IMG/VR virus record: IMGVR_UViG_3300021142_000188
Location: 1-23,016 of that record
Length of the DNA stretch: 23,016 nucleotides
Direction: 5' to 3' (one strand)
From: a virus
Part shown: positions 6,037-15,838 of the stretch, one piece after another
How positions within the stretch are numbered: the first letter of the stretch is position 1
Layout of the letters: every line of letters begins with the position of its first letter
Program-made: the position numbers and the translations under genes
The notes under the pieces: generated by a model
Database searches by the model: none
Told to the model about the DNA's origin: nothing
What the model saw: the letters and a program-made list of their open reading frames with translations, nothing else

Positions 6037-7956
6037 ATGGCAGATACTAATACACCTCAACAACCAACGGGCGCTTTGCCAGTTGCTGACCAACAAACTC
6101 AAATGGGTGGTTTACCTTCAGATGCAATTACCGTCGGTAAAAAAACATATAGTGCATCTGAGACAGACCAGATTCTAGCCAATATGCAAAAAATGATGGA
6201 GGAACGTCAAGGTCCTCTTAATACCTTTTTGTCTGGTTTGAAAGATGCCGCAGCTTGGACTGGTGGTGGTATTAACGGGCCAACAGCCACATTAGCTGCT
6301 CGTGATTCACAGAAACAGCAAGAAGCTAAAGAGCTGTTTGACATGCAAACTAAGATTGCAGAAATTCGTGCAGCTGAAGAGCAACAACGTCAATTTGCAC
6401 AGGAACAACAAAACGCTTTTGGTGGCGGACCTTTTGGTTCTTCCACTGGGGCAGCTGGCACTCCTGGTACTGGAACTTCTGGCGGATCTGGTGCACCAGT
6501 TGCTGGTCAAAATGGTGTAGTATATAAAGGCGTTCCAATTGATATGGAAACCGCTGTGGCAATGCGCCAAGCTCCTAATCGTGACGCTCGCGATAAAATA
6601 TTTAATGACTTTGTTAGTAATCTTGCTAAAAATCGTCAGCAATTTAAATACAGTGCTCCAGGCTATAATAAAACTGTTGAAATTAAAGTGCCAGATGGCA
6701 AAGGTGGTTACAAGCTTGAAATGGTTTCACCAATTGAAGCTGAACGTATGGAATCTTCTGGCCAAGGTACAGTTACCCAACCACAAGCTCCTACCGCCCC
6801 CACTGGTGTAACTCCAGCAGCAATTCGCCAAGTTGAAACTGGTGGTCGTGAAGGTTTGGTAAGTCCTAAAGGTGCTATGGGCGTAATGCAAGTTATGCCT
6901 AATACAAACCGCAATCCTGGCTTTGGTGTTACTCCGGCTAAAGATAATTCTCCAGCAGAATTAAAACGTGTTGGTGAAGACTATTACGGTGCAATGCAAA
7001 AGAAATACGGCAACGATACTCTTGCTGCCATTGCATACAATATGGGTCCTGGTAAAGCGGATGCATGGTTGGCTAAAGGTGGTGATTTTAATGCCCTTCC
7101 GAAAGAGACTCAGAATTACATCGGCAAAGTGCATCTTGCACAAGCACAATTAAGTCGTCAACCAGGTGGTTTAGCTGGCGCTGCTGCAGATTTGGCTCCA
7201 ATATCCACAGCAAAAGCTGCTCAAACCATTCCAGAAATGAAATCACAACTGGCAGTTACTCAAGCTGGTGGTGAGGCCGAAGCAAGAGAACTTGGTAAAG
7301 AAGCTGGAGTTGAAGCTACTGCGCTTGAATCTGCGCGTTCTAATGCTGGTGAGCGTTTGAACTCTGTAAACTATGTTCGCAACCAAATGGCCAACACAAA
7401 CGTTGTCGGCATTCTTTCTAAGCCGACAGTTGCCGCAGCGTTGGGCACATTACTTAAAGAAGGCATTGATGCTGGCGGAAGCAAAACTTCTATTGGTGGT
7501 TTAGATCAAGCCATTGCACAAGTAATGAAGGGTTCTAACGAAAAAGATATTGCAGCAATGCAAAACATTGGTCGTGAATTTGCTAAGATGGAATTGACTG
7601 AATCTAGAAATTACCTTAAAGGTCAAGGTGCTGTTTCTGATGCAGAACGTCGTCTCATCACTCGTGCAGTTTCTAATATTGGTTCTAGTCCTGAATCTAT
7701 TAAAGACTTTCTTAAGATTACTGAAATGCGCGCTAAGTTTGATGACAGAGCTGGTATTGCTTGGGAAAAATATCAAGATGCAAATCCAGACGCATCTTAT
7801 CGCAAGTTTAAACGTTCCGATGAATTTAAAAATCTTAAAGACCAATATTTAAATGAAATTAAAGGGTTTACGCAATCTACTCTGCAACCTAAACAACCTG
7901 CAGCAGGAACAGTACATCCCGGTGCAGCCTTAGTTGACAAATACTTAAAGCGATAA
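6037..7956 (+). CDS. Internal virion protein with lytic transglycosylase (SLT) domain
   Basis: The product has 639 aa. Residues 260-345 hold a soluble lytic transglycosylase fold: the catalytic Glu is E267 in the IRQVETGG run, followed by SPKGAMGVMQVMP (276-288) and AYNMGPGKADAW (333-344). These enzymes cleave the MurNAc-GlcNAc bond of peptidoglycan; in podoviruses such a domain on an ejected core protein (T7 gp16 type) opens the cell wall for DNA entry. Before it are a coiled coil (residues 90-125, KQQEAKELFDMQTK...) and a Gly/Ser/Thr linker (128-160); after it comes a long helical region to the C-terminus. The start ATG lies 9 bp after the previous stop. It sits among Ala/Gly-rich virion genes, which supports the ejection role. 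Confidence 0.85.
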   Translation: MADTNTPQQPTGALPVADQQTQMGGLPSDAITVGKKTYSASETDQILANMQKMMEERQGPLNTFLSGLKDAAAWTGGGINGPTATLAARDSQKQQEAKELFDMQTKIAEIRAAEEQQRQFAQEQQNAFGGGPFGSSTGAAGTPGTGTSGGSGAPVAGQNGVVYKGVPIDMETAVAMRQAPNRDARDKIFNDFVSNLAKNRQQFKYSAPGYNKTVEIKVPDGKGGYKLEMVSPIEAERMESSGQGTVTQPQAPTAPTGVTPAAIRQVETGGREGLVSPKGAMGVMQVMPNTNRNPGFGVTPAKDNSPAELKRVGEDYYGAMQKKYGNDTLAAIAYNMGPGKADAWLAKGGDFNALPKETQNYIGKVHLAQAQLSRQPGGLAGAAADLAPISTAKAAQTIPEMKSQLAVTQAGGEAEARELGKEAGVEATALESARSNAGERLNSVNYVRNQMANTNVVGILSKPTVAAALGTLLKEGIDAGGSKTSIGGLDQAIAQVMKGSNEKDIAAMQNIGREFAKMELTESRNYLKGQGAVSDAERRLITRAVSNIGSSPESIKDFLKITEMRAKFDDRAGIAWEKYQDANPDASYRKFKRSDEFKNLKDQYLNEIKGFTQSTLQPKQPAAGTVHPGAALVDKYLKR

Positions 7957-7959
7957 TAA

Positions 7960-8919
7960 ATGAGCGACGAATTAAACCGCGTTTATGAGGCATTACAAAA
8001 AGCCGACGAAGCTGGTAACGTAGAGGACGCTAAACAATTAGCGTCTTATGCTCGCCAATTAGAACAACAGGCTAAAGCTCCGTCAGAAGAGAAAGAAGCT
8101 AAACCAGTTGAAGCGCAGCTTAATGATATTATGTATCCTGCAGCTGGTGCTGTTGCTGGTGGTGTTGCAGGTGGTGCCACAACAGCAGGTCGGATTATTG
8201 GCGGCTTAAAAAACGCTGCTAAGGCAGCCGATCCGGTTGCTATGGAAGAAGCACGCCGGGTTGCTGAACGAAATGCAGTGGAAACTTGGGGCCGTACGCA
8301 ACATCGTGTCCCAGGTATGGCTGCTGAAAAACCCGGTTTGTATTTTGGTGAACCAAATTACGCATTAGAAAAAGAACGTGCGTATCGTGAAATTCAAAAA
8401 ATGGCTGCAGACCCAGAATATCACGCTAAAGTGCTAGCAGAACAAAAACCTGCAGCAGCGCAATATGCTAAACGAATTGCGCAAGCTAACCCAACGATGC
8501 TGCAAAAAGTAGGTCGAGTATTGGGTAAAGCTCCATTGGGTGCAATTGGTGGTGCTTTAACTGGCGCAGGTGCTGGTATGCAAGCTGCTGATGCGATGAA
8601 TCGTTTTGAAGCTGGTGATAAACTTGGCGGTTATATTAGTGGCGCTGGTGCCCTTGGTACCGGTTTAGCAATGATTCCAACACCAATCACCCGTATTGGT
8701 GGGACTGCAATTGGTTTAGGCGCAGAAGGTTTAAATGCCTATATTGATTATTTAAAAACACACAATCCGTTTGACAATCCACAAGTCAAACAGATGTTGC
8801 AACCACAACAGCAACAAGCCCAACCACAACAAATGGCTACTGGCGGTAAAGTAAAACCGCTGTCTAAAGCACAACGTCACGCTAAATTTTTAATTGACCA
8901 AAAGAAAGCGAATGCGTAA
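7960..8919 (+). CDS. Putative internal virion/ejection protein with Gly/Ala hydrophobic segments (319 aa)
   Basis: The start lies 4 bp after the preceding TAA. The N-terminal ~45 residues are a charged helix (YEALQKADEAGNVEDAKQLA). Then comes a Gly/Ala hydrophobic stretch near residues 60-80 (AGAVAGGVAGGATTAGRIIG) and another near 190-240. These glycine-zipper-like runs are common in phage proteins that insert into the host envelope during ejection. The C-terminus is Gln-rich and then basic (KVKPLSKAQRHAKFLIDQKK). I do not recognise a named family. Its stop codon overlaps the next small ORF in another frame (ATGCGTAA). Confidence 0.7.
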   Translation: MSDELNRVYEALQKADEAGNVEDAKQLASYARQLEQQAKAPSEEKEAKPVEAQLNDIMYPAAGAVAGGVAGGATTAGRIIGGLKNAAKAADPVAMEEARRVAERNAVETWGRTQHRVPGMAAEKPGLYFGEPNYALEKERAYREIQKMAADPEYHAKVLAEQKPAAAQYAKRIAQANPTMLQKVGRVLGKAPLGAIGGALTGAGAGMQAADAMNRFEAGDKLGGYISGAGALGTGLAMIPTPITRIGGTAIGLGAEGLNAYIDYLKTHNPFDNPQVKQMLQPQQQQAQPQQMATGGKVKPLSKAQRHAKFLIDQKKANA

Positions 8920-9055
8920 GTTTGTATTTGTTCCGCATCCCATTCCAGTGTTTAGTAAACCACTAGACACGAATGAACCAAACCCCCCTGTATTGAAAAA
9001 GCCAAATACTGATATAATTAAAAAGAGACCAGCAAAGTTTGGCGGCTCTTTTTAA
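8912..9055 (+). CDS. Small Pro/Lys-rich ORF (47 aa) ending inside a terminator
   Basis: The ATG at 8912 lies within the last three codons of the 319-aa gene, so it is overlapping and coupled. The product is basic and proline-rich (FVPHPIPVFSKPLDTNEP, then IIKKRPAKFGGSF). The last ~11 codons and the stop lie in the hairpin at 9020-9053. Overlap coupling and lack of stops support it as a gene; short length and no recognised family limit confidence. The basic tail resembles small phage virion or scaffold-associated proteins, but no function can be assigned. Confidence 0.5.
   Translation: MRKFVFVPHPIPVFSKPLDTNEPNPPVLKKPNTDIIKKRPAKFGGSF
9020..9053 (+). terminator. Rho-independent terminator after virion block
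   Basis: AAAAAGAG(A)CC pairs with GGCTCTTTTT, giving 10 bp with one bulged A and a 13-nt loop, ending in TTTTT. It is nearly symmetrical, so it may also work on the minus strand against leftward transcripts running past 9486. The stop of the 47-aa ORF is just after the T run. Confidence 0.75.
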
Positions 9056-9074
9056 ATAACAGAAAGGCTAAGTC

Positions 9075-9485
9075 ATGGAAGTTTTACTAGTGCCCATAGA
9101 GGACACGGACTTACACTGGCTAAAAGTAAAAGACTTTATTAATAAAGCAGTCTATTACACAAACGGTATGGCTAACATAGATGACGTCTATAACACGCTT
9201 CTTACTGGCAAATCATCATTATGGGTTGTTTATAAAGACAATAACGCAATTGGTGGTTTAATTACTAGCATTTCTTTATATCCCCAAAAAACTATATTAA
9301 ATGTACAGTTTTGCGGTGGTGTTGATTTTAAAGAATGGAAAGACATAGCGTTTAATGCAATACGTCAATATGCCAAAGAGCATGACTGTCAAGCTATGCA
9401 AGTCGCCGCTAGACCCGGTTGGGGTAGAATCTTTAAAGACGACGGTTGCAAGCTTCTTTGGTCTACTTTTGAAATTGCTGCATAG
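9075..9485 (+). CDS. GNAT-family-like acetyltransferase (136 aa)
   Basis: AAAGG 7 bp before the ATG is a fair ribosome-binding site. The protein has the order expected of a small GNAT: an N-terminal helix pair, a strand ending LWVVYKDNNAIGGLITSISL (residues 50-70), a central strand (TILNVQFCGG), a helix (AFNAIRQYAKEHDCQAMQV), and a C-terminal ARPGWGRIFKDDGCKLLWSTFE. The RPGWGR turn and 'G-C-K' ending are typical of phage GNAT-like proteins next to virion genes. The canonical Q/R-x-x-G-x-G/A acetyl-CoA loop is weak, so activity is uncertain. It stands alone between a terminator and the convergent polymerase gene; its stop at 9485 directly abuts the polymerase stop at 9486. Confidence 0.7.
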   Translation: MEVLLVPIEDTDLHWLKVKDFINKAVYYTNGMANIDDVYNTLLTGKSSLWVVYKDNNAIGGLITSISLYPQKTILNVQFCGGVDFKEWKDIAFNAIRQYAKEHDCQAMQVAARPGWGRIFKDDGCKLLWSTFEIAA

Positions 9486-10619
9486 TTATTTCTTATAACG
9501 CTTATTAACCCAGCCCTCCGCTGCGAGAGGAAAATCAGGCGCCCATAATGGCGGCGTTATCATAATCTTGATAACGTCATTCATTGCGGACTCCCCATTT
9601 TGTTCTTCTACTAGGAGTAGCACCTCGTCATGGATGGAGTTAATAACCTCATAGCCAGCTCGCTCGAGCTCTATCATAGCAAACGCCAAGAAATCGCGAG
9701 CCGTTCCTTGAACGGCACTTTGGAAGATACTACTTCCGATCAATTGGTTACGAGTCCATTGCCGCGTGTAGGTGCTCTGGCTGTGGACAGTAACTCCCAT
9801 CTTCTGTTCACCCCATGGTGTGGTGAGCAACTCGAGTTGTGGCCTTTGCCAACAGATCAATCTACCACTCGGTAGCTTTAACCACAGTACCTTATTACGG
9901 CACCACATCTGCAATTTATTCCCTACCTTAAACGTCACATTCGTTGTCTCAACCGCTTTGGTTGCGGCATCCTCACATGCATACCATAACTCTTTTACCT
10001 TGGAGTAGGATTTGCGGTAACCATCTACTGCATTTTTAGCTTGCACCTCAGTCAGTTTGACCCCCATCCCCTCAGCATACTTAACAAGACCTTTAGCTCC
10101 TTGACCAAACATCGCACCGAGGACAGCTGATTTGCTGATCTGGCGTTGATCCTTCGTAACTTGATCATAAGCGACTCGGTATAAACTTTCTGCAGCAAAG
10201 ACTTTATATTCATCTAATCCCTTTCTAAATAATTCTACTTTATCATTTTGCCCAGCCAGGTAGACGCCAACTCGGTTTTCAATTGAGCTAAAATCCACGT
10301 CAACGAAGGTTTTGCCTTTTGGGGCGGATATGGCTGATCGTACAAGGCTTGATAGTTGTTGCATCGTACCCACTCCTTGATTAAATACGCCTGGTATCGC
10401 CTGTTCAATCTCTTCATCGCTGATCGTGGGGCGAGCAATATTCTGGAGATTAAGCCCGCCACGACTAGCCCAACGACCCGTACTGGCGCCGTGATAAACA
10501 AGAGTATTACGAATCCTACCTTCACGTTGAATCTCCATCATCTTAGCGTACTTAGCCACGCTAGTTTGGCTTCCTTCTTGGCGTAATTTGAGCACCTTTA
10601 AAATTAGTTCTTGGTTCAT
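9486..10619 (-). CDS. polA: DNA polymerase family A, C-terminal (palm/fingers) half of a split gene
   Basis: This 377-residue ORF holds the whole polymerase core. Motif A is VDVDFSSIENR with catalytic D109 and E114. Motif B is around residues 158-175 (R159, K163, then MFGQGAKG). Motif C is IHDEV with H330, D331 and E332. It lacks the 3'-5' exonuclease domain and begins at the point where that domain and linker would end in full-length phage PolA (LKLRQEGSQTSVAKYAKM, a segment normally internal). The missing part is at 12612-13433. The start ATG overlaps the stop of the previous small ORF (ATGA) and is preceded by the junction repeat at 10617-10638. All catalytic residues are present, so an active two-chain polymerase is plausible, but that is inference. 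Confidence 0.93.
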   Translation of the reverse strand: MNQELILKVLKLRQEGSQTSVAKYAKMMEIQREGRIRNTLVYHGASTGRWASRGGLNLQNIARPTISDEEIEQAIPGVFNQGVGTMQQLSSLVRSAISAPKGKTFVDVDFSSIENRVGVYLAGQNDKVELFRKGLDEYKVFAAESLYRVAYDQVTKDQRQISKSAVLGAMFGQGAKGLVKYAEGMGVKLTEVQAKNAVDGYRKSYSKVKELWYACEDAATKAVETTNVTFKVGNKLQMWCRNKVLWLKLPSGRLICWQRPQLELLTTPWGEQKMGVTVHSQSTYTRQWTRNQLIGSSIFQSAVQGTARDFLAFAMIELERAGYEVINSIHDEVLLLVEEQNGESAMNDVIKIMITPPLWAPDFPLAAEGWVNKRYKK

Positions 10620-10873
10620 TTTTCTTGTGCCTTCCTTAGATATTCCGCAAGTCTTTCACCATAAGTCAATGAATGTATATCCATTTTTAATGCTTCTATT
10701 TCAGACTTTTGATTGACAATAAACAATTGATAGTCTTCTGCAATGGTCAATAGTTGTTCTATTTTAGCTTGTTGCTGGCGGAGCATGGTGGCGGCTTGGT
10801 CAAACAGTTTATAGTCCGTTGAGTAATACGGTTCGGTTTCTTGAAGTGCATCAGCTAGTTCATTTGCGTTCAT
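10616..10873 (-). CDS. Small coiled-coil cassette protein ending RKAQEK (85 aa)
   Basis: Lies directly before the polymerase half and overlaps its start by ATGA. It begins MNANELADALQE and then forms a heptad-rich helix (AATMLRQQQAKIEQLL, KSEIEALKMDI), which predicts a coiled coil. Its last residues LRKAQEK are encoded by the junction repeat. A 19-bp stretch encoding EIEALK (10686-10704) is identical to one in the small gene at 11698-11904. I recognise the general style from small accessory proteins of environmental phages; no function is known. Confidence 0.7.
   Translation of the reverse strand: MNANELADALQETEPYYSTDYKLFDQAATMLRQQQAKIEQLLTIAEDYQLFIVNQKSEIEALKMDIHSLTYGERLAEYLRKAQEK
10617..10638 (-). 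repeat. Junction repeat copy 6 (before polymerase half)
   Basis: A diverged copy of the 22-bp junction repeat (AAGGCACAAGAAAAATG on the minus strand). It encodes LRKAQEK-stop of the 85-aa gene, the ribosome-binding site, and the ATG of the polymerase half. Confidence 0.85.
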
Positions 10874-11055
10874 TCGCAGTTCTTCCTCATTCGTTTAGTC
10901 TTGTCCTCGTTATCACTAAAGTATTTACAATCCTTGCCTTCTCTAGGACTATCAACAAAGTAAGACTGGTACTCTGGCGTAGCTCTAGCAGTAAAGCGAT
11001 AACACCTCTCACGCTTCTTACAAGTCTCGTCACGACACATTGTTATATCAGCCAT
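10870..11055 (-). CDS. Cys-rich small protein, possible zinc-binding (61 aa)
   Basis: The start overlaps the upstream stop (CTAATGG), and its own stop overlaps the next start (TGCGAATGAAC), so it is coupled at both ends. The N-terminus has C7, C12 and C18 (CRDETCKKRERCYRF), with two more Cys at 43 and 60, enough for a metal site. The rest is Arg/Lys-rich. No junction repeat precedes it. The function is unknown; a small zinc-binding nucleic-acid or host-takeover protein is possible. Confidence 0.7.
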   Translation of the reverse strand: MADITMCRDETCKKRERCYRFTARATPEYQSYFVDSPREGKDCKYFSDNEDKTKRMRKNCE

Positions 11056-11333
11056 TAGTTCATCCCCGTAAGTCCATGTTGCGACTGTATTGTCTTAACA
11101 TATTGCACCGCATCCCAGAATCCATTCTCATACTCTTCAGATTGAATGCCTGTCATCGTAATATCTTCAGCCCAAACAACCATCTTGTTTAGATGTATCA
11201 GTTGCCTACGCTGGCTCTCAATGACTTCCTGAGCCTCCATGAGAATTACTTGAGCTGTACCCCACGGCAATTCTGTGTTTTCTTGTAGGTACTCTCCAAT
11301 ATCGTTTAATACTTTTTCAGTCGTTAATCTCAT
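11055..11333 (-). CDS. Small helical cassette protein (92 aa)
   Basis: I place the start at 11333 (MRLTTEKVLNDIGEYL) because the 22-bp junction repeat supplies its ribosome-binding site (AAAGGCACAAGAGAAATG). An ATG 12 codons further up would read through that repeat (MQVNIVKKGTRE) and is probably not used. The product is mostly helical and acidic (AQVILMEAQEVIESQRRQL, then EEYENGFWDAVQYVKTI). It has no Cys cluster or membrane segment, and no named family. The stop overlaps the next start. Confidence 0.7.
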   Translation of the reverse strand: MRLTTEKVLNDIGEYLQENTELPWGTAQVILMEAQEVIESQRRQLIHLNKMVVWAEDITMTGIQSEEYENGFWDAVQYVKTIQSQHGLTGMN

Positions 11334-11352
11334 TTCTCTTGTGCCTTTCTTA
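11331..11352 (-). repeat. Junction repeat copy 5
   Basis: A copy of the 22-bp junction repeat. Here the stop TAA of the upstream 31-aa ORF lies inside the repeat, so the repeat is untranslated and acts as ribosome-binding site for the gene starting at 11333. It shares the extra upstream bases ATTGT with copy 3. Confidence 0.9.
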
Positions 11353-11445
11353 ACAATGTTTACTTGCAATAATCATCATAAAAGATTGAAAAATTACAAT
11401 AATACTTAGAATGGTTATAGTTACTCTGCTCCAAAATGTAGTCAT
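11350..11445 (-). CDS. Single-span membrane microprotein (31 aa)
   Basis: Reads MTTFWSRVTITILSIIVIFQ and then SFMMIIASKHC. The hydrophobic run from about residue 8 to 26 is a good membrane span with Arg at the N side and Lys/His at the C side. Its ATG overlaps the stop of the 39-aa membrane ORF (ATGA) and follows the diverged junction repeat copy 4. Its stop is inside copy 5. Short, but well framed by the repeat pattern. Confidence 0.55.
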   Translation of the reverse strand: MTTFWSRVTITILSIIVIFQSFMMIIASKHC

Positions 11446-11561
11446 TTTTTTTGTGCCTTTATTAGTATTGCCATTGAATACAATAATCCAGCCAAAAATC
11501 CTGCCACAACAAAAAATATAATATGCAATCCAATTAACAGATATATCATTTCAATATCCAT
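11442..11561 (-). CDS. Single-span membrane microprotein ending KAQKK (39 aa)
   Basis: Begins MDIEMIYLLIGLHIIFFVVA and continues to LLYSMAILIKAQKK. About 25 residues are hydrophobic, giving one long or two tight membrane spans with a basic cytoplasmic tail. That tail is the translated form of a decayed junction repeat (AILIKAQKK compared with AILRKAQEK elsewhere). The start lies 16 bp inside the end of the upstream gene; the stop overlaps the next ATG. Confidence 0.55.
   Translation of the reverse strand: MDIEMIYLLIGLHIIFFVVAGFLAGLLYSMAILIKAQKK
11443..11464 (-). repeat. Junction repeat copy 4 (diverged)
   Basis: AAAGGCACAAAAAAAATG on the minus strand, with A replacing G at two places in the AAGAGAA part. 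Homology extends upstream (GCAATACTAA is shared with copy 1), so the shared unit is longer than 22 bp in these two copies. Confidence 0.75.
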
Positions 11562-11701
11562 TTCTTAATCATCTTGCTGTATCTGCACATAAACTGAAAA
11601 TTTCTTAATCTAAAAATAAAGCCAAAACTACCTTTATCAGACAATGCGTAGAAGTTAAAACCGTTTTTTACAGACTCACATTCTTTACGGATGTATATCA
11701 T
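11546..11701 (-). CDS. Small basic aromatic protein (51 aa)
   Basis: The start at 11701 (MIYIRKECESV) is preceded by GGAGAAAACAA and overlaps the upstream stop as ATGA; a start nine codons earlier would overlap the upstream gene further. The product is basic and rich in Phe/Tyr (GFNFYALSDKGSFGFIFRLR, ending KMIKKWILK). There are two Cys and no recognised family. The next gene starts inside its last codons. Confidence 0.55.
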   Translation of the reverse strand: MIYIRKECESVKNGFNFYALSDKGSFGFIFRLRNFQFMCRYSKMIKKWILK

Positions 11702-11904
11702 TTGTTTTCTCCAACTTGCACAAGCCATTGTGATAGTCTTTTACATTCAGCCTTTAATGCTTCTATTTCAGCTTTCAGCACTTCCCTGCCAATTGATAAA
11801 CAATATGGGCAACTAGCATGACCCATTGAATTTTTTGGGTGGTCTGTAAGTTTATAAAATGAATGCCCTGATTCGCATTGCTCTAAGATTGGTTCATTGT
11901 TCAT
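11698..11904 (-). CDS. Small zinc-ribbon-like plus coiled-coil protein (68 aa)
   Basis: Residues 10-35 hold C10, H14 and the pair CPYC (32-35), a possible zinc site. Residues 43-60 form a short coiled coil (LKAEIEALKAECKRL). Its first 15 bp (encoding MNNEP) are identical to those of the gene at 12334-12615. Its EIEALK-coding 19 bp are identical to a part of the 85-aa gene. A junction repeat provides its ribosome-binding site. It looks like a mosaic built by recombination between neighbours. The function is unknown. Confidence 0.7.
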   Translation of the reverse strand: MNNEPILEQCESGHSFYKLTDHPKNSMGHASCPYCLSIGREVLKAEIEALKAECKRLSQWLVQVGENK

Positions 11905-11923
11905 TTCTCTTGTGCCTTTCTTA
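11902..11923 (-). repeat. Junction repeat copy 3
   Basis: A perfect copy of the AAAGGCACAAGAGAAATG core. The upstream 33-aa ORF stops at the TAA in its left part, so the repeat is a 16-bp untranslated leader with ribosome-binding site for the 68-aa gene. Confidence 0.9.
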
Positions 11924-12022
11924 ACAATATTTACCCATTAAAAACCCAGTAGCCCAAACCAAAATAAACCATCCGCCTGTGCCATCAAAATACCAATCTA
12001 AAAACTTATCCCACCGAGTCAT
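11921..12022 (-). CDS. Membrane microprotein (33 aa)
   Basis: Reads MTRWDKFLDWYFDGTGGWFI and then LVWATGFLMGKYC. A hydrophobic, aromatic-rich segment (GGWFILVWATGFLMG) forms one short membrane span after an amphipathic N-terminus. AGGAG lies 6 bp before the ATG (TTAGGAGAAGAACATG), a good ribosome-binding site. It starts inside the end of the 71-aa gene. Its KYC ending and stop in the repeat match the KHC ending of the 31-aa ORF. Confidence 0.6.
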   Translation of the reverse strand: MTRWDKFLDWYFDGTGGWFILVWATGFLMGKYC

Positions 12023-12221
12023 GTTCTTCTCCTAAGTTCATTGTTAACCTTACTTCTCCAACTGTGAAGTTGTTTGTTTTTTGGAATTGCTCAAGAGCTT
12101 CTGTTAGCTCTCTTAAAACTTTTCCATCATCCCAAATTTTGTCTCTGTTATATGTTGCTACTTTTGCGGTGAATCTTATTGTTACTTCTTCCAGTTTTGG
12201 TAAGCTATAAGATATTGTCAT
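12006..12221 (-). CDS. Small hypothetical protein (71 aa)
   Basis: The start ATG is the end of junction repeat copy 2 and overlaps the stop of the 39-aa ORF upstream. The product has an N-terminal strand-rich part (EVTIRFTAKVATYN), a helix (GKVLRELTEALEQFQ) and a C-terminal strand (FTVGEVRLTMNLG), a small alpha/beta layout. There are no Cys, no membrane segment and no recognised family. Confidence 0.65.
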   Translation of the reverse strand: MTISYSLPKLEEVTIRFTAKVATYNRDKIWDDGKVLRELTEALEQFQKTNNFTVGEVRLTMNLGEEHDSVG

Positions 12222-12337
12222 TTCTCTTGTGCCTTTCTTAAATTAGGGGTTGACTGTGTAGACGGTAGCCAACCAATACCGTTAGCAATCGGATGAGAAG
12301 TCCCATCCCCTAGCACTACACTTGCCTTACTAATCAT
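12218..12337 (-). CDS. Small ORF ending RKAQEK (39 aa)
   Basis: Starts with the ATG of junction repeat copy 1 and ends in copy 2, reading MISKASVVLGDGTSHPIANG, then IGWLPSTQSTPN and LRKAQEK. Both ends overlap neighbours by ATGA. Its framing by two repeat copies is the main evidence that it is translated. The function is unknown; it could also be a decayed remnant of a larger cassette. Confidence 0.5.
   Translation of the reverse strand: MISKASVVLGDGTSHPIANGIGWLPSTQSTPNLRKAQEK
12219..12240 (-). repeat. Junction repeat copy 2
   Basis: A perfect core (AAAGGCACAAGAGAAATG), read as LRKAQEK-stop for the 39-aa ORF and as ribosome-binding site plus ATG for the 71-aa gene. Confidence 0.9.
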
Positions 12338-12615
12338 TTCTCTTGTGCCTTTCTTAGTATTGCTCTAGAAAATTCAAATATACCAACCCTACTAAATTCG
12401 ATTCCTTCAAAATCTTCGTACAATGAATAAACATACTCATTGTTGCTTGCAATTTTTTTAATAACTTCCGTTATTTCCTCATCTGTTAGTGTCTTTGCTG
12501 GATGGGTGTAGAGTGGAACATAACCTTCTTTTGGGTTTGGAATAATACCGCTTGCCGTTACCCAATAATCATGTTCTTCTAAATACTTTCCATACGCTAC
12601 TGGTTCATTGTTCAT
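12334..12615 (-). CDS. Small phage accessory protein, MNNEPVAYG...LYTHPAK type (93 aa)
   Basis: First gene of the array. Its ATG overlaps the stop of the polymerase N-terminal half (ATTATGAAC). I recognise the layout NEPVA... then VPLYTHPAKTLTDEEI, widespread in small accessory proteins of environmental and enteric phages; the function is unknown. It ends AILRKAQEK, coded by the junction repeat. The first 15 bp match the start of the gene at 11698-11904, and the downstream polymerase half also begins MNQE, suggesting that cassette starts recombine. Confidence 0.75.
   Translation of the reverse strand: MNNEPVAYGKYLEEHDYWVTASGIIPNPKEGYVPLYTHPAKTLTDEEITEVIKKIASNNEYVYSLYEDFEGIEFSRVGIFEFSRAILRKAQEK
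12335..12356 (-). repeat. Junction repeat copy 1
   Basis: A perfect core (AAAGGCACAAGAGAAATG). It encodes LRKAQEK-stop of the 93-aa gene and supplies ribosome-binding site and ATG for the next ORF. Upstream bases GCAATACTAA are shared with copy 4. Confidence 0.9.
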
Positions 12616-13433
12616 AATCCCTCCAATTCTGCAATTTTAGCGTTTACTGTCTCTGCGGTCAAATCTTTTAAATCGGCACCTTGGGCATTTAGCCACCCTA
12701 GCAATTTAGCCCTCTCAGACGGCTTAAAACCGGTCAAGGAGACGCATTCCTTGTCAATGGCATCCTGCGCCCTTACCACAGCAAGGACAGCGTTGTGGAG
12801 CTCATTATAGTCCACAGGAACGCCTCTAAGGTTGATCCGCTGGGTTAGGTACCAAACTTCCATTTCTTGAGCGCTAAGGGGCCTTAAAACGCTTCCTATG
12901 GCCATCTCTGCGCGTACGTCCTGTGCGCAATAGCGGAACAGTTCTTCCATGAGCATGGGGTCGTTGTTAAATTGCCCCTCTTTTTTGGGTTTGCATAGCT
13001 TCTGAATAAGGTATCTACCACGGGTATCTTTTTGTTGGTTTGCGTCCATAAAGATAGCTGCGTCACCCAAAGCCTGCGGTATGTTATTGGCTGCTGCTAT
13101 AGCCATGGAGTCAATGCACTGCTCTAGTTTTAGTGGTGGCCAACCGTACTTAGGTACACAGACGCAGTTCCAGATGGCGTACTCGAACATGGCGTTCCAT
13201 GCTTGGATTTTGCCGCCGTTTTCAACATAAACTAGCAATTTGTGTAATTGTGTTGAAAAATTGTCCATTGAGCCTAGTCGGACAGGCTGCGCTTTTACAA
13301 CTTGTACATTATCAGGTTGGGTGCCGAACGCAATACACAACACTTCTGTTGTGTCATCGTTGGCGTAGATGTCTAGCCCTTGTTCGGCTAGGTCGATGGT
13401 GCTGCGGGTTTCAAAGTCAATGCTGTAAATCAT
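12612..13433 (-). CDS. polA: DNA polymerase family A, N-terminal 3'-5' exonuclease half of a split gene
   Basis: The start at 13433 (MIYSIDFETRS) has AGGAG 6 bp upstream; the ORF is open further up, but that part is not protein-like. The 273 residues contain the DnaQ-like proofreading exonuclease: Exo I D6/E8 (SIDFETRS), Exo II N80-x-x-F-E84 (AWNAMFEYAIWN), Exo III Y168 and D172 (YCAQDVRAE). After it comes the start of the thumb/linker region (QRINLRGVPVD). It ends at AKIAELEGL, just where the palm part should follow, and the palm half is 2.0 kb downstream at 9486-10619. Together they total 650 residues, a usual full length for phage PolA of the type found with DUF2800 and DUF2815. The stop TGA overlaps the first array gene. 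Confidence 0.92.
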   Translation of the reverse strand: MIYSIDFETRSTIDLAEQGLDIYANDDTTEVLCIAFGTQPDNVQVVKAQPVRLGSMDNFSTQLHKLLVYVENGGKIQAWNAMFEYAIWNCVCVPKYGWPPLKLEQCIDSMAIAAANNIPQALGDAAIFMDANQQKDTRGRYLIQKLCKPKKEGQFNNDPMLMEELFRYCAQDVRAEMAIGSVLRPLSAQEMEVWYLTQRINLRGVPVDYNELHNAVLAVVRAQDAIDKECVSLTGFKPSERAKLLGWLNAQGADLKDLTAETVNAKIAELEGL

Positions 13434-13482
13434 AAATGCTCCTAAGGCAGCCAACGTATTGGCGGAATAAATACTGTAACAT

Positions 13483-13511
13483 AAAAAAGGGGATGCTGTA
13501 CAAGCCACCCC
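13483..13511 (-). terminator. Weak rho-independent terminator between nrdJ and polymerase N-half
   Basis: On the minus strand GGGGTGGCT pairs with AGCATCCCC around a 5-nt loop, with two mismatches, followed by TTTTTT. It lies 26 bp after the nrdJ stop. The internal mismatches suggest attenuation rather than full stop, since the polymerase has no clear promoter of its own. Confidence 0.6.
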
Positions 13512-13536
13512 CAACATCACCACCAAGTGAAAAACT

Positions 13537-15420
13537 TTAAATCTCGCAAGATCCCGCAGAGCATGCTAACTGCTGCGCGCCTTCGACGTTGTCTGTGTTT
13601 TCTTTGAACTCTTCCCAGTTGATTTGGGGGAGACTGGCTTTGAGCTCTTTGTAGACTTCTTTGGTGCACTCTTCGTACGGGGCTTGGCGGTACGTTCCGC
13701 CATCGTACGGGAGGTAGGAAACTCCGCTAATTTCGTCAAAGTTTTTCCATGTCCACGCTCCAACTTCTGGCCAGTCTTTTTCTTCAACGGAAATGGTAAC
13801 CGAGGGTTTGTGTTCACACCAGTGTCTTTGGTACGTGAGCCAGAGTTCAAGGTGTGAAATAGGCGTGACATCGCTTCTTGTAATGCCTGCTGGCGCTTTA
13901 ATAGGGAACGAAAAAACGACGGTTTGGTCGGGCTTGTAGACGCATGCTTCATTTGGGATTCCTTGTTCAATTAAGAATTGGGTGAGAGGGTCTTTCTTAT
14001 CTCCCCTAACTCTTCGTATGTAGTATTTAGCGTGTCGAGGGTGGATTCCAGAAGCACTATCAACGAGCTGGCTGACGGTTCCACTGGGCTTGACGCAAGT
14101 AATTGCAGCACTCTTAGGTATTCCAAGCAACTCTGCAAACTCCTCATTGGCTCGTCTAGCCTCCTCTCGAAGCTCTGTAAGTAAACCATTTAGTTTTTCT
14201 CCTTGAGTTGTTAGTAACGGGTTGTCATAAATTCCTGTAAGGGACACACCGAGTAATCTTTCTTCTTCCGTATTTCTCTGCCACACCCTACGCAGATAAG
14301 GGAACTTGGTAAAAGTTGCTTGTATTGTTCCGAGTATAGCGGCAAGGCGTACTTTAGACAAAAGGGTTTCTCTTGTGTCGTCATGGCGCACTACACATTC
14401 ACTAAGATTGCAAAATTGGTATGGTCGGAGAATGATTTCACTGCACGGATTTGTTCCCCATTCAAAATTTGGATCTCGATGCCCGTATTTTTCAACCGTC
14501 TTTTTAGCAGCCTCCCGATTAAAAATGCCTCGTTCACCGGAATGGGAGTTGTAAAGTGATAGCCATTCTTCCATGAACTTTCCGACAGTAGGTGTTTCGT
14601 TATACACCGCACTGTTGTTCGCAAGAGCGCGGTGTGGCGCTGTGTCCCACCATGGTCCAGCTTTTGCATGTCGAATCCTTTCATCATCCAGATCGGAAAG
14701 TGAAATCATAGCAGAGCGACGTACACCACCCACTACAACTACCTCACCAATTTTACACATCAAGTCATGACACTCTAATGAGTTTAATCGGCGACCTTTT
14801 GCATGTTTAAAAGTATTAACCGTAAACTTAAATAAGTCAACTAGTGGTTCCGGCCCGGAAGCTCTTCCACCAAAAGTTTTGAGTCGTGTTCCGGCTGGGC
14901 GTACGTTGGAAACGTCCCAACGTGGAATTTCTCCTGCCCAGAGGTGGGCGAGGAGTAAACGCAATGACTTTGCCCAACCTTCTTTGGAGTCGTGGACTGC
15001 GATGGTGTGCTCGGAATCAAACAAGTTTTCTGGCACTTCTGGCAAGTTGTTAATGTACTTGGATTCAACTGAGAATCCAACACCAGTTCCGCAAAGCAAA
15101 ATGAACATTGCTTCGTCAAAGGATTTGGGGTCATCCACTGGGAGATACGAGCAATTATAGACGCAAGTATTGTCACGATCGGCACTCTTTCCTGCTGTCA
15201 TCATGGCGCGCATGGACGGCATTAAATCTAGATTATAAATGGCACTACGAATTTCGGTTTTTAATTCTGTGTTTTGTGTGATTGCTGGTGTACGGCTAAA
15301 AATATAATCGACATAACGGTCAACTGTTTCGCCCCAATTTTCACGACGGCTCTTATCGTCTTGGTAACGGGCGTAACGGCTTGCTGCTATATATTCCATG
15401 TATTGATCCATCTTAACCAT
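13537..15420 (-). CDS. nrdJ: Adenosylcobalamin-dependent (class II) ribonucleotide reductase
   Basis: Reduces ribonucleotides to deoxyribonucleotides for phage DNA synthesis, using B12 to form the radical. Seen directly: the first active-site Cys region (NTCVYNC, residues 84-90), FGGRASGPEPL (183-193), the catalytic NPCSEI with N324, C326 and E328, the KPSGTVSQLVDSASGIHP segment, and a C-terminal CSAGSC (C620/C625) redox pair with the CxxxxC spacing of the Lactobacillus leichmannii monomeric enzyme. At 627 residues it is about 100 shorter than that enzyme. The start at 15420 has GGAG 7 bp upstream and overlaps the endonuclease gene by 8 bp; M4 is an alternative. It follows a GIY-YIG gene and precedes the polymerase, so it supplies dNTPs for the same replication module. 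Confidence 0.95.
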   Translation of the reverse strand: MVKMDQYMEYIAASRYARYQDDKSRRENWGETVDRYVDYIFSRTPAITQNTELKTEIRSAIYNLDLMPSMRAMMTAGKSADRDNTCVYNCSYLPVDDPKSFDEAMFILLCGTGVGFSVESKYINNLPEVPENLFDSEHTIAVHDSKEGWAKSLRLLLAHLWAGEIPRWDVSNVRPAGTRLKTFGGRASGPEPLVDLFKFTVNTFKHAKGRRLNSLECHDLMCKIGEVVVVGGVRRSAMISLSDLDDERIRHAKAGPWWDTAPHRALANNSAVYNETPTVGKFMEEWLSLYNSHSGERGIFNREAAKKTVEKYGHRDPNFEWGTNPCSEIILRPYQFCNLSECVVRHDDTRETLLSKVRLAAILGTIQATFTKFPYLRRVWQRNTEEERLLGVSLTGIYDNPLLTTQGEKLNGLLTELREEARRANEEFAELLGIPKSAAITCVKPSGTVSQLVDSASGIHPRHAKYYIRRVRGDKKDPLTQFLIEQGIPNEACVYKPDQTVVFSFPIKAPAGITRSDVTPISHLELWLTYQRHWCEHKPSVTISVEEKDWPEVGAWTWKNFDEISGVSYLPYDGGTYRQAPYEECTKEVYKELKASLPQINWEEFKENTDNVEGAQQLACSAGSCEI

Positions 15421-15838
15421 TGTTTAATCTCCAAATTGTCATTGCGTTTTTCTTTTTATCTCCACCTAATAAAAAGGCGGTGTTTTGTGGACCATATCCC
15501 ATTTTTGCCAATGCTTTAATCATTGTTACAACTTCATCAGCAAATTTTGATGGATACTTCCAATCGGGATTACTTAAATTATTAAACCTTGGTTTGAACT
15601 TTTCAATCTTAGTTAATTCTAAACTTAATGCAGCTTCTTTGCTTAAGCCGTTTGCCATTATGCTTACAACATCTTGCATTGTATGGCCTAACGCAAATAA
15701 TTCATTCAATCTTTCTTGGTGATTTTTCTTTCTGTTAGAGCCTCGGCATAACCAAGCTCTTTCGTAACTTCCCATTCCGATGTAAAGCAATTCACCGGTT
15801 TCGGGATCTATGTGCTGGTACACGTAATATTGATCCAT
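15413..15838 (-). CDS. GIY-YIG endonuclease (homing type)
   Basis: The N-terminus reads YYVYQHIDPETGELLYIGMG (residues 4-23), the two strands of the GIY-YIG fold with YVY and YIG motifs. R27 follows at the expected distance, and a Glu lies in ALSLELTKIEKFKPRFN, the usual metal-ligand region. The last ~50 residues are basic with a likely helix-turn-helix (MIKALAKMGYGPQNTAFLLG), a DNA-binding tail as in free-standing homing endonucleases. It overlaps the start of nrdJ; ribonucleotide reductase genes are classic homing targets in phages. No intron is seen in nrdJ, so it would act as a free-standing (intronless) element. It follows a terminator, and its promoter is not evident. Confidence 0.85.
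   Translation of the reverse strand: MDQYYVYQHIDPETGELLYIGMGSYERAWLCRGSNRKKNHQERLNELFALGHTMQDVVSIMANGLSKEAALSLELTKIEKFKPRFNNLSNPDWKYPSKFADEVVTMIKALAKMGYGPQNTAFLLGGDKKKNAMTIWRLNNG

Follow-up and report, generated by a model that had tools for sequence, protein, structure and literature searches.

How can a phage gain, lose or exchange very small genes while the neighboring genes keep their frames and starts? The origin and swapping of tiny phage genes is an old question, for which "illegitimate recombination plus selection" is the usual answer, and it is raised by the window analyzed here, i.e., the complete 23,016-bp IMG/VR virus record IMGVR_UViG_3300021142_000188. In this window, the gene for a family A DNA polymerase (polA) is present as an N-half (13433-12612) and a C-half (10619-9486) with 11 small open reading frames (ORFs; cassettes c1 to c11) between them, and 6 of the 12 junctions so formed carry a 22-bp repeat. 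We propose, with a probability of about 0.82, that this is a shuffling array of mini-genes, located inside polA, which are exchanged at the shared repeat border by homologous recombination.

The junction repeat and its distribution

The six copies, all on the minus strand, were found where the original prediction had placed them. With up to three mismatches, the 18-mer is expected by chance 0.07 times in the window, and six copies were seen in none of 100 shuffled sequences. The shared core that had been described is exact in only four copies; those at 11443 and 10617 are off by two bases. It had also been proposed that the repeat, depending on frame, is either the C-terminus LRKAQEK-stop of the upstream gene or lies just after its stop. 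The first alternative applies to the copies at 12335, 12219 and 10617 and, as the variant LIKAQKK, to the copy at 11443, while at 11902 and 11331 the TAA stop of the upstream gene is inside the 22-mer, as its first triplet. Every window copy terminates, as predicted, in the ATG of the next gene, and in the in-frame copies stop and start are joined as ATGA.

The anatomy of the repeat was assessed from 279 unique copies. In its full form the repeat reaches up to 38 bp (TTTGCTAGAGCAATACTAAGAAAGGCACAAGAGAAATG). Its right edge is fixed, in that the 15-mer core, over 276 unique occurrences, is followed by an ATG 265 times and by a GTG 4 more times; its left edge is graded, with 0 to 20 extra bases matching TTTGCTAGAGCAATACTAAG (all 20 in 74 of 277 copies). 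For 231 of 267 copies, the longest upstream frame was the one in KAQEK/TGA phase, as compared to about one in three expected for a free phase, a count that partly reflects shared descent of one large family and involves 57 upstream families. A search for proteins ending in RKAQEK, suggested by the original prediction, found many unrelated protein families with this terminus. At the fixed RKAQEK-stop, the codons used were AGA (177/177), AAG (175/177), GCA (169/177), CAA (176/177), GAG (165/177) and AAA (174/177), as compared to a background codon use in the window of 18% for AGA, 30% for AAG and 28% for GAG. As the codons are nearly invariant where the peptide is fixed, these data indicate conservation or homogenization at the level of the repeat DNA itself. 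The Shine-Dalgarno (SD)-like part of the repeat is AAAGG, 10 nt from the ATG. The repeat RNA showed no fold in three copies (z 0.3 to 1.3, no stable hairpin), no strong inverted repeats were found around the four window repeats examined (arms were weak, at 72-79%, and unshared, or there were none), and promoter-like matches in the region were at chance level (7, as compared to 9.2 in shuffled sequences).

The exact 18-mer was found in at least 120 IMG/VR contigs, a sampling by exact match that enriches perfect repeat copies, and the reversed 18-mer had no IMG/VR match. Bacterial and archaeal contigs totaling 257 Gb had 15 matching stretches, with 7 or 8 expected by chance, and the multi-copy contigs among them, in metagenome-assembled genomes (MAGs), resemble binned phage; no match was found in plasmids. 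One clear GenBank phage record with the repeat comes from Manatee Spring. With many IMG/VR stretches, few bacterial or archaeal ones and none in plasmids, the repeat is a phage element, and a host or plasmid origin was rejected. Among 50 repeat-bearing records searched over their whole length, each had 1 to 9 copies and none matched the reversed control; the copies were confined to one strand in 49 records. The sole record with repeats on both strands was L015 (G006). The repeat-bearing phages may loosely be labeled largely aquatic, a label that is loose because its basis is the Manatee Spring record and MAG titles that point to lakes.

Exchange of cassettes at repeat borders

According to the original prediction, such a border would let small genes be gained, lost or swapped, and comparisons with other phages bear this out. 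Where nearly whole cassettes recurred in another contig, the 100 bp past the downstream repeat were unrelated in all 42 ordered pairs and the 100 bp past the upstream repeat in 37 of the 42 (these pairs are partly reciprocal, with about 27 unordered pairs). When c2 was searched by its own body rather than by the repeat, all of its borders that could be seen in the window and in seven contigs had a full repeat, with six left and five right neighbors in total. At one site, a single repeat in contig L080 corresponds to two repeats with two genes between them in L230 and L088, a precise 346-bp indel with flanks otherwise the same. Over 7 kb, contigs L073 and L229 share 99.2-99.3% identity, and their arrays are wholly different; similarly, a single repeat in L106 and L034 corresponds to six in L117, which is about 95% identical to them. 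In phage L081, cassette c10 is 91% identical at the nucleotide level, and polA is just 27% identical. Neither a fixed gene set nor a repeat private to one genome, the two outcomes named in advance as contrary to the proposal, was thus observed.

In 33% of cases, the homology of both partners ended inside the repeat zone, as compared to 8% expected on one side for random positions. Homology also ended at conserved stretches within the MNNEPVA...LTDEEI...FARAILRKAQEK family, and we thus regard the repeat as the main, not the only, foothold. The start of c1 is 98% identical to contigs L043 and L228, in both of which a repeat stands before the c1 start. As a side observation, c1 is internally mosaic when compared to the end of contig L317 (first 22 bp and last half the same, middle different), which suggests that crossovers also occur at conserved stretches of the MNNEPVA/LTDEEI family.

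Annealing proteins were found in 23 of the 50 repeat-bearing records, many of which are fragments, with no overlap between types: Erf in 14 (over the cut-off), Sak in 5, Gp2.5-like in 3 and RecT in 1. Tyrosine integrase or serine resolvase domains were found in none of these 50 partly fragmentary records. The L313 array is flanked by genes for a Sak annealing protein (PF06378, E 5e-41) on one side and a YqaJ exonuclease (PF09588, E 5e-33) on the other, and the exonuclease gene begins at a repeat in six contigs. The single-stranded DNA (ssDNA)-binding protein of the window is Gp2.5-like/Enc34. Rad52-like phage recombinases recombine short or diverged homologies, creating mosaics (De Paepe 2014, PMC3945230). 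The present system may resemble such shuffling, as array contigs often encode annealing proteins, and differs in that the homologies there are chance ones between genes, whereas here a standard border is placed at many gene junctions. As annealing proteins are frequent, tyrosine or serine recombinases were found in none of the 50 partly fragmentary records and Rad52-like enzymes use short homologies, homologous recombination of the annealing type is the best candidate mechanism.

From these sequences we infer homologous recombination by annealing at a border that would be safe for translation, owing to the ATGA overlap. The repeat would have three jobs: its coding frame gives the upstream gene its last residues, RKAQEK, and its stop codon; the overlapping ATG would start the next gene; and its identical DNA would be the homology foothold. 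A cassette or a run of cassettes could then be gained, lost or replaced through recombination between repeats of co-infecting phages, most likely by phage single-strand annealing proteins (Erf, Sak, RecT or Gp2.5-like), and such an exchange would keep every frame and start intact.

The split polymerase gene

The early operon of the window, on the minus strand, comprises, in order, an SNF2-type helicase, DUF3310, a small terminase-like gene, a DUF2800 nuclease, the ssDNA-binding protein (PF10991/phrog_112), a ribonucleotide reductase, the polA N-half, the 11 small ORFs and the polA C-half (Table 1). When the array junctions were examined singly, 8 of 12 were 4-base ATGA stop/start overlaps, which suggests that the array is one translation-coupled operon. 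Domain and family searches matched almost none of the cassettes to known families.

Table 1. Window coordinates of the polymerase halves, cassettes and junction repeats
Feature	Coordinates	Strand	Length (aa)	Remarks
polA N-half	12612..13433	-	273	DNA polymerase phrog_17; exonuclease motifs intact by eye
c1	12334..12615	-	93	MNNEPVAY...FSRAILRKAQEK
c2	12218..12337	-	39	found in 7 further contigs; 6 distinct left neighbors overall
c3	12006..12221	-	71	
c4	11921..12022	-	33	
c5	11698..11904	-	68	
c6	11546..11701	-	51	
c7	11442..11549	-	35	membrane-like
c8	11350..11445	-	31	also in L043 and L117, neighbors unrelated
c9	11055..11333	-	92	c9+c10 90% identical (nucleotides) to L061 over 515 bp
c10	10870..11055	-	61	phrog_20586; 91% identical (nucleotides) to L081
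c11	10616..10873	-	85	MNANELAD...LRKAQEK
polA C-half	9486..10619	-	377	PF00476; polymerase motifs A/B/C intact by eye
c2-c8 block	11330..12377	-		99.7% identical to another phage, L313, over 1048 bp; repeats at both ends
Repeat 1 (c1/c2)	12335..12356	-		in frame, LRKAQEK-stop; extended, most of the 38-bp form (TCTAGAGCAATACTAAG...)
Repeat 2 (c2/c3)	12219..12240	-		in frame, LRKAQEK-stop
Repeat 3 (c4/c5)	11902..11923	-		upstream stop TAA inside repeat
Repeat 4 (c7/c8)	11443..11464	-		in frame, variant LIKAQKK-stop
Repeat 5 (c8/c9)	11331..11352	-		upstream stop TAA inside repeat
Repeat 6 (c11/polA C-half)	10617..10638	-		in frame, LRKAQEK-stop; supplies ATG of polA C-half

The placement of the array in a split polA, which the original prediction had pointed out, is true of the window, and its N-side junction recurs in a second phage; arrays are usually located elsewhere, and polA is one open frame in 142 relative loci spanning the junction (some of which are the same contig fetched twice). 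In phages of the window's family (e.g., L105), the array is typically located upstream of the SNF2 helicase, at a distance of some kb, with polA intact. As arrays elsewhere are mostly not in polA, we regard the split, seen in two phages, as a special case outside the general system.

The two window ORFs jointly span the exonuclease and polymerase parts of intact relatives. The N-half ends in ...AELEGL-stop, and GGAGG precedes the ATG of c1. In a structure model of the intact L237 protein (pLDDT 81.6), for which the nearest solved folds are Klenow-type polymerases, the split site is a 6-residue loop (263-268) between two predicted helices. The array would have entered polA in this loop, so that the N-half end overlaps the c1 start and the last repeat starts the C-half. 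Independent contig L317, which stops before the C-half, has the same N-side split junction: its N-half is mostly 50-80% identical to the window, with 94-100% identity in the last 150-200 bp before the split, and its c1 has a start identical to that of the window, a different middle and an identical end. Since it is shared with L317, the N-side junction is probably no assembly artifact and has itself been passed between phages. A degenerate-pattern search for the C-side junction yielded no further example.

An array that killed polA, leaving the phage defective or dependent on another polymerase, would agree with the single open frame in the relative loci; we consider it unlikely. Both halves are open and keep their catalytic motifs, with a dN/dS near 0.2, like intact relatives (decay would not be visible so soon if the split is recent). 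Each half has a start plus an SD sequence or the repeat, and the break is located in a loop and has the same border in L317. Moreover, split family A polymerases have been reported in the OM43 phages MEP401 and MEP402, in which polA consists of two ORFs, one for the exonuclease and the N-terminal polymerase part and one for the C-terminal part, separated by one small ORF for which a possible intron was proposed (PMC10580990). The window is similar in having a family A polA as two ORFs with other coding sequence between them, whereas its insert consists of 11 shuffled ORFs without an Rfam intron. Overall, the polymerase is probably made as two chains, which may form an active enzyme. An intron or intein in the window polA was rejected, as no Rfam intron was found in 9000-14000 and the insert is made of independent ORFs with many stops and their own starts.

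Several further observations concern polA and its surroundings. The intact polA genes of the window's phage family (L237, L249, L257, L171 and other loci) are mosaics around an LELRQEG motif, and strong breakpoints cluster just after the linker that is split in the window (L237 and L249 are 75% identical before and 100% after), as if polymerase halves reassorted. In a distant polA in L194 (IMGVR_UViG_3300021440_000105, approx. 6971-8040), about 1 kb of extra sequence in frame between the N- and C-part ends in ...NGLISITGN, after which the polymerase resumes; this insert looks like an intein. Between the ribonucleotide reductase and ssDNA-binding genes of the window, a 141-aa ORF (15413-15838, minus strand) has a GIY-YIG-like start (YVYQHIDPETGELLYIGMG), no Pfam match and homologs in only two of the fetched polA contigs, and is possibly a homing endonuclease. 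Directly after the polA C-half, a 136-aa ORF on the opposite strand (9075-9485, plus strand) had no Pfam match and no homolog among the fetched contigs.

Known repeat systems and alternative explanations

The original prediction had compared the repeat to the start-associated sequences (SAS) and extended SAS (ESAS) of cluster K mycobacteriophages. SAS are short asymmetric repeats, present in one orientation and many copies per genome, which precede the start codons of small non-structural genes of different families in different phages and have conserved positions not accounted for by SD pairing (PMC3203893). The likeness holds for position, directly before small-gene starts, and for orientation, on one strand per record; it does not extend to the sequence, as the 13-bp SAS consensus GGGATAGGAGCCC had no window match with up to two mismatches, or to the 17-bp inverted repeats of ESAS, none of which was found around the four window repeats examined. 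In addition, the present repeat is longer, includes the ATG and usually encodes the upstream C-terminus, and exchange at it is documented.

It is quite unlikely, in our judgment, that the repeat is, like SAS, a translation element only and that shuffling reflects illegitimate recombination followed by selection. This explanation would account for the placement of the repeat nearly always at a start codon and for the ATGA overlap in most copies. However, the SD-like part is short and distant from the ATG, CACAAGAGAA is equally conserved without an SD role, and the conserved upstream AGAAAG, often with 16 more nt, is left unexplained; precise indels and identical multi-gene blocks ending at repeats, on the other hand, require homology there.

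The PeSLs of T4-type phages are reported to be early promoters with terminator stem-loops between genes that mediate modular shuffling of small early genes (Arbiol 2010 and Comeau 2014, as cited in PMC4503421). Both systems combine a short repeated border with modular exchange between related phages, whereas the present repeat is unstructured, lies in coding sequence, carries the start codon and has promoter matches at chance level. The repeat thus belongs to neither SAS nor PeSLs, though it is SAS-like in position and PeSL-like in shuffling.

Integron cassettes are single-gene units with a common recombination sequence, which form arrays and are precisely inserted and lost. Recognition of the present repeat by a dedicated site-specific recombinase, as in integrons, would fit its direct orientation, the single-gene units, the arrays of 2 to 9 copies and the exact gain and loss, yet we consider it very unlikely: no tyrosine integrase or serine resolvase was found in the 50 partly fragmentary records, the copies tested do not fold like an attC, the border overlaps coding sequence, the tested regions lack strong inverted repeats, and the graded 5' edge leaves no fixed crossover. 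Equally improbable is that arrays and polA insertion are assembly chimeras among phages that share the repeat in one sample, since, although all sources but one are metagenome contigs with the repeat in common, different IMG records concur (L230 and L088 on the filled site, L106 and L034 on the one-repeat state), the N-side split junction, which lacks the repeat, is found again in L317 with a different N-half, and frames are kept at junctions.

Some points nevertheless weigh against repeat-based homologous recombination as the mode of exchange. Anchors inside genes (the MNNEPVAW start and PAKTLTDEEI) are also used in many exchanges, as seen in c1, and 22-38 bp is short for recombination. Individual joins at repeats may be chimeric, as all contigs except the one GenBank record were assembled from metagenomes. 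Annealing proteins were not detected in 27 of the 50 (partial) records and are thus only candidates for the enzyme, and a site-specific enzyme of an unrecognised family is conceivable.

No prior report of this repeat was found in open-access papers, the literature covered here to the exclusion of subscription journals, and the version of the border with a coding tail, as well as its spread, appears undescribed so far. The novelty lies in one border sequence that is at once coding tail, start and foothold for recombination, together with direct evidence that distant phages exchange genes there. We consider it reasonably probable that this represents a widespread, undescribed exchange system of aquatic phages, in which more than 100 mini-gene families share one border in phages with unrelated replication genes, and which can colonize polA and spread its split form. 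As a defined border of 22-38 bp predicts the exchange sites, the proposal is directly testable in population metagenomes and in the laboratory. The window is an example of a split polymerase gene whose break falls in a structurally tolerant loop, and the repeat explains the RKAQEK tail common to unrelated small proteins and provides a rule for locating cassettes in unannotated phage DNA.

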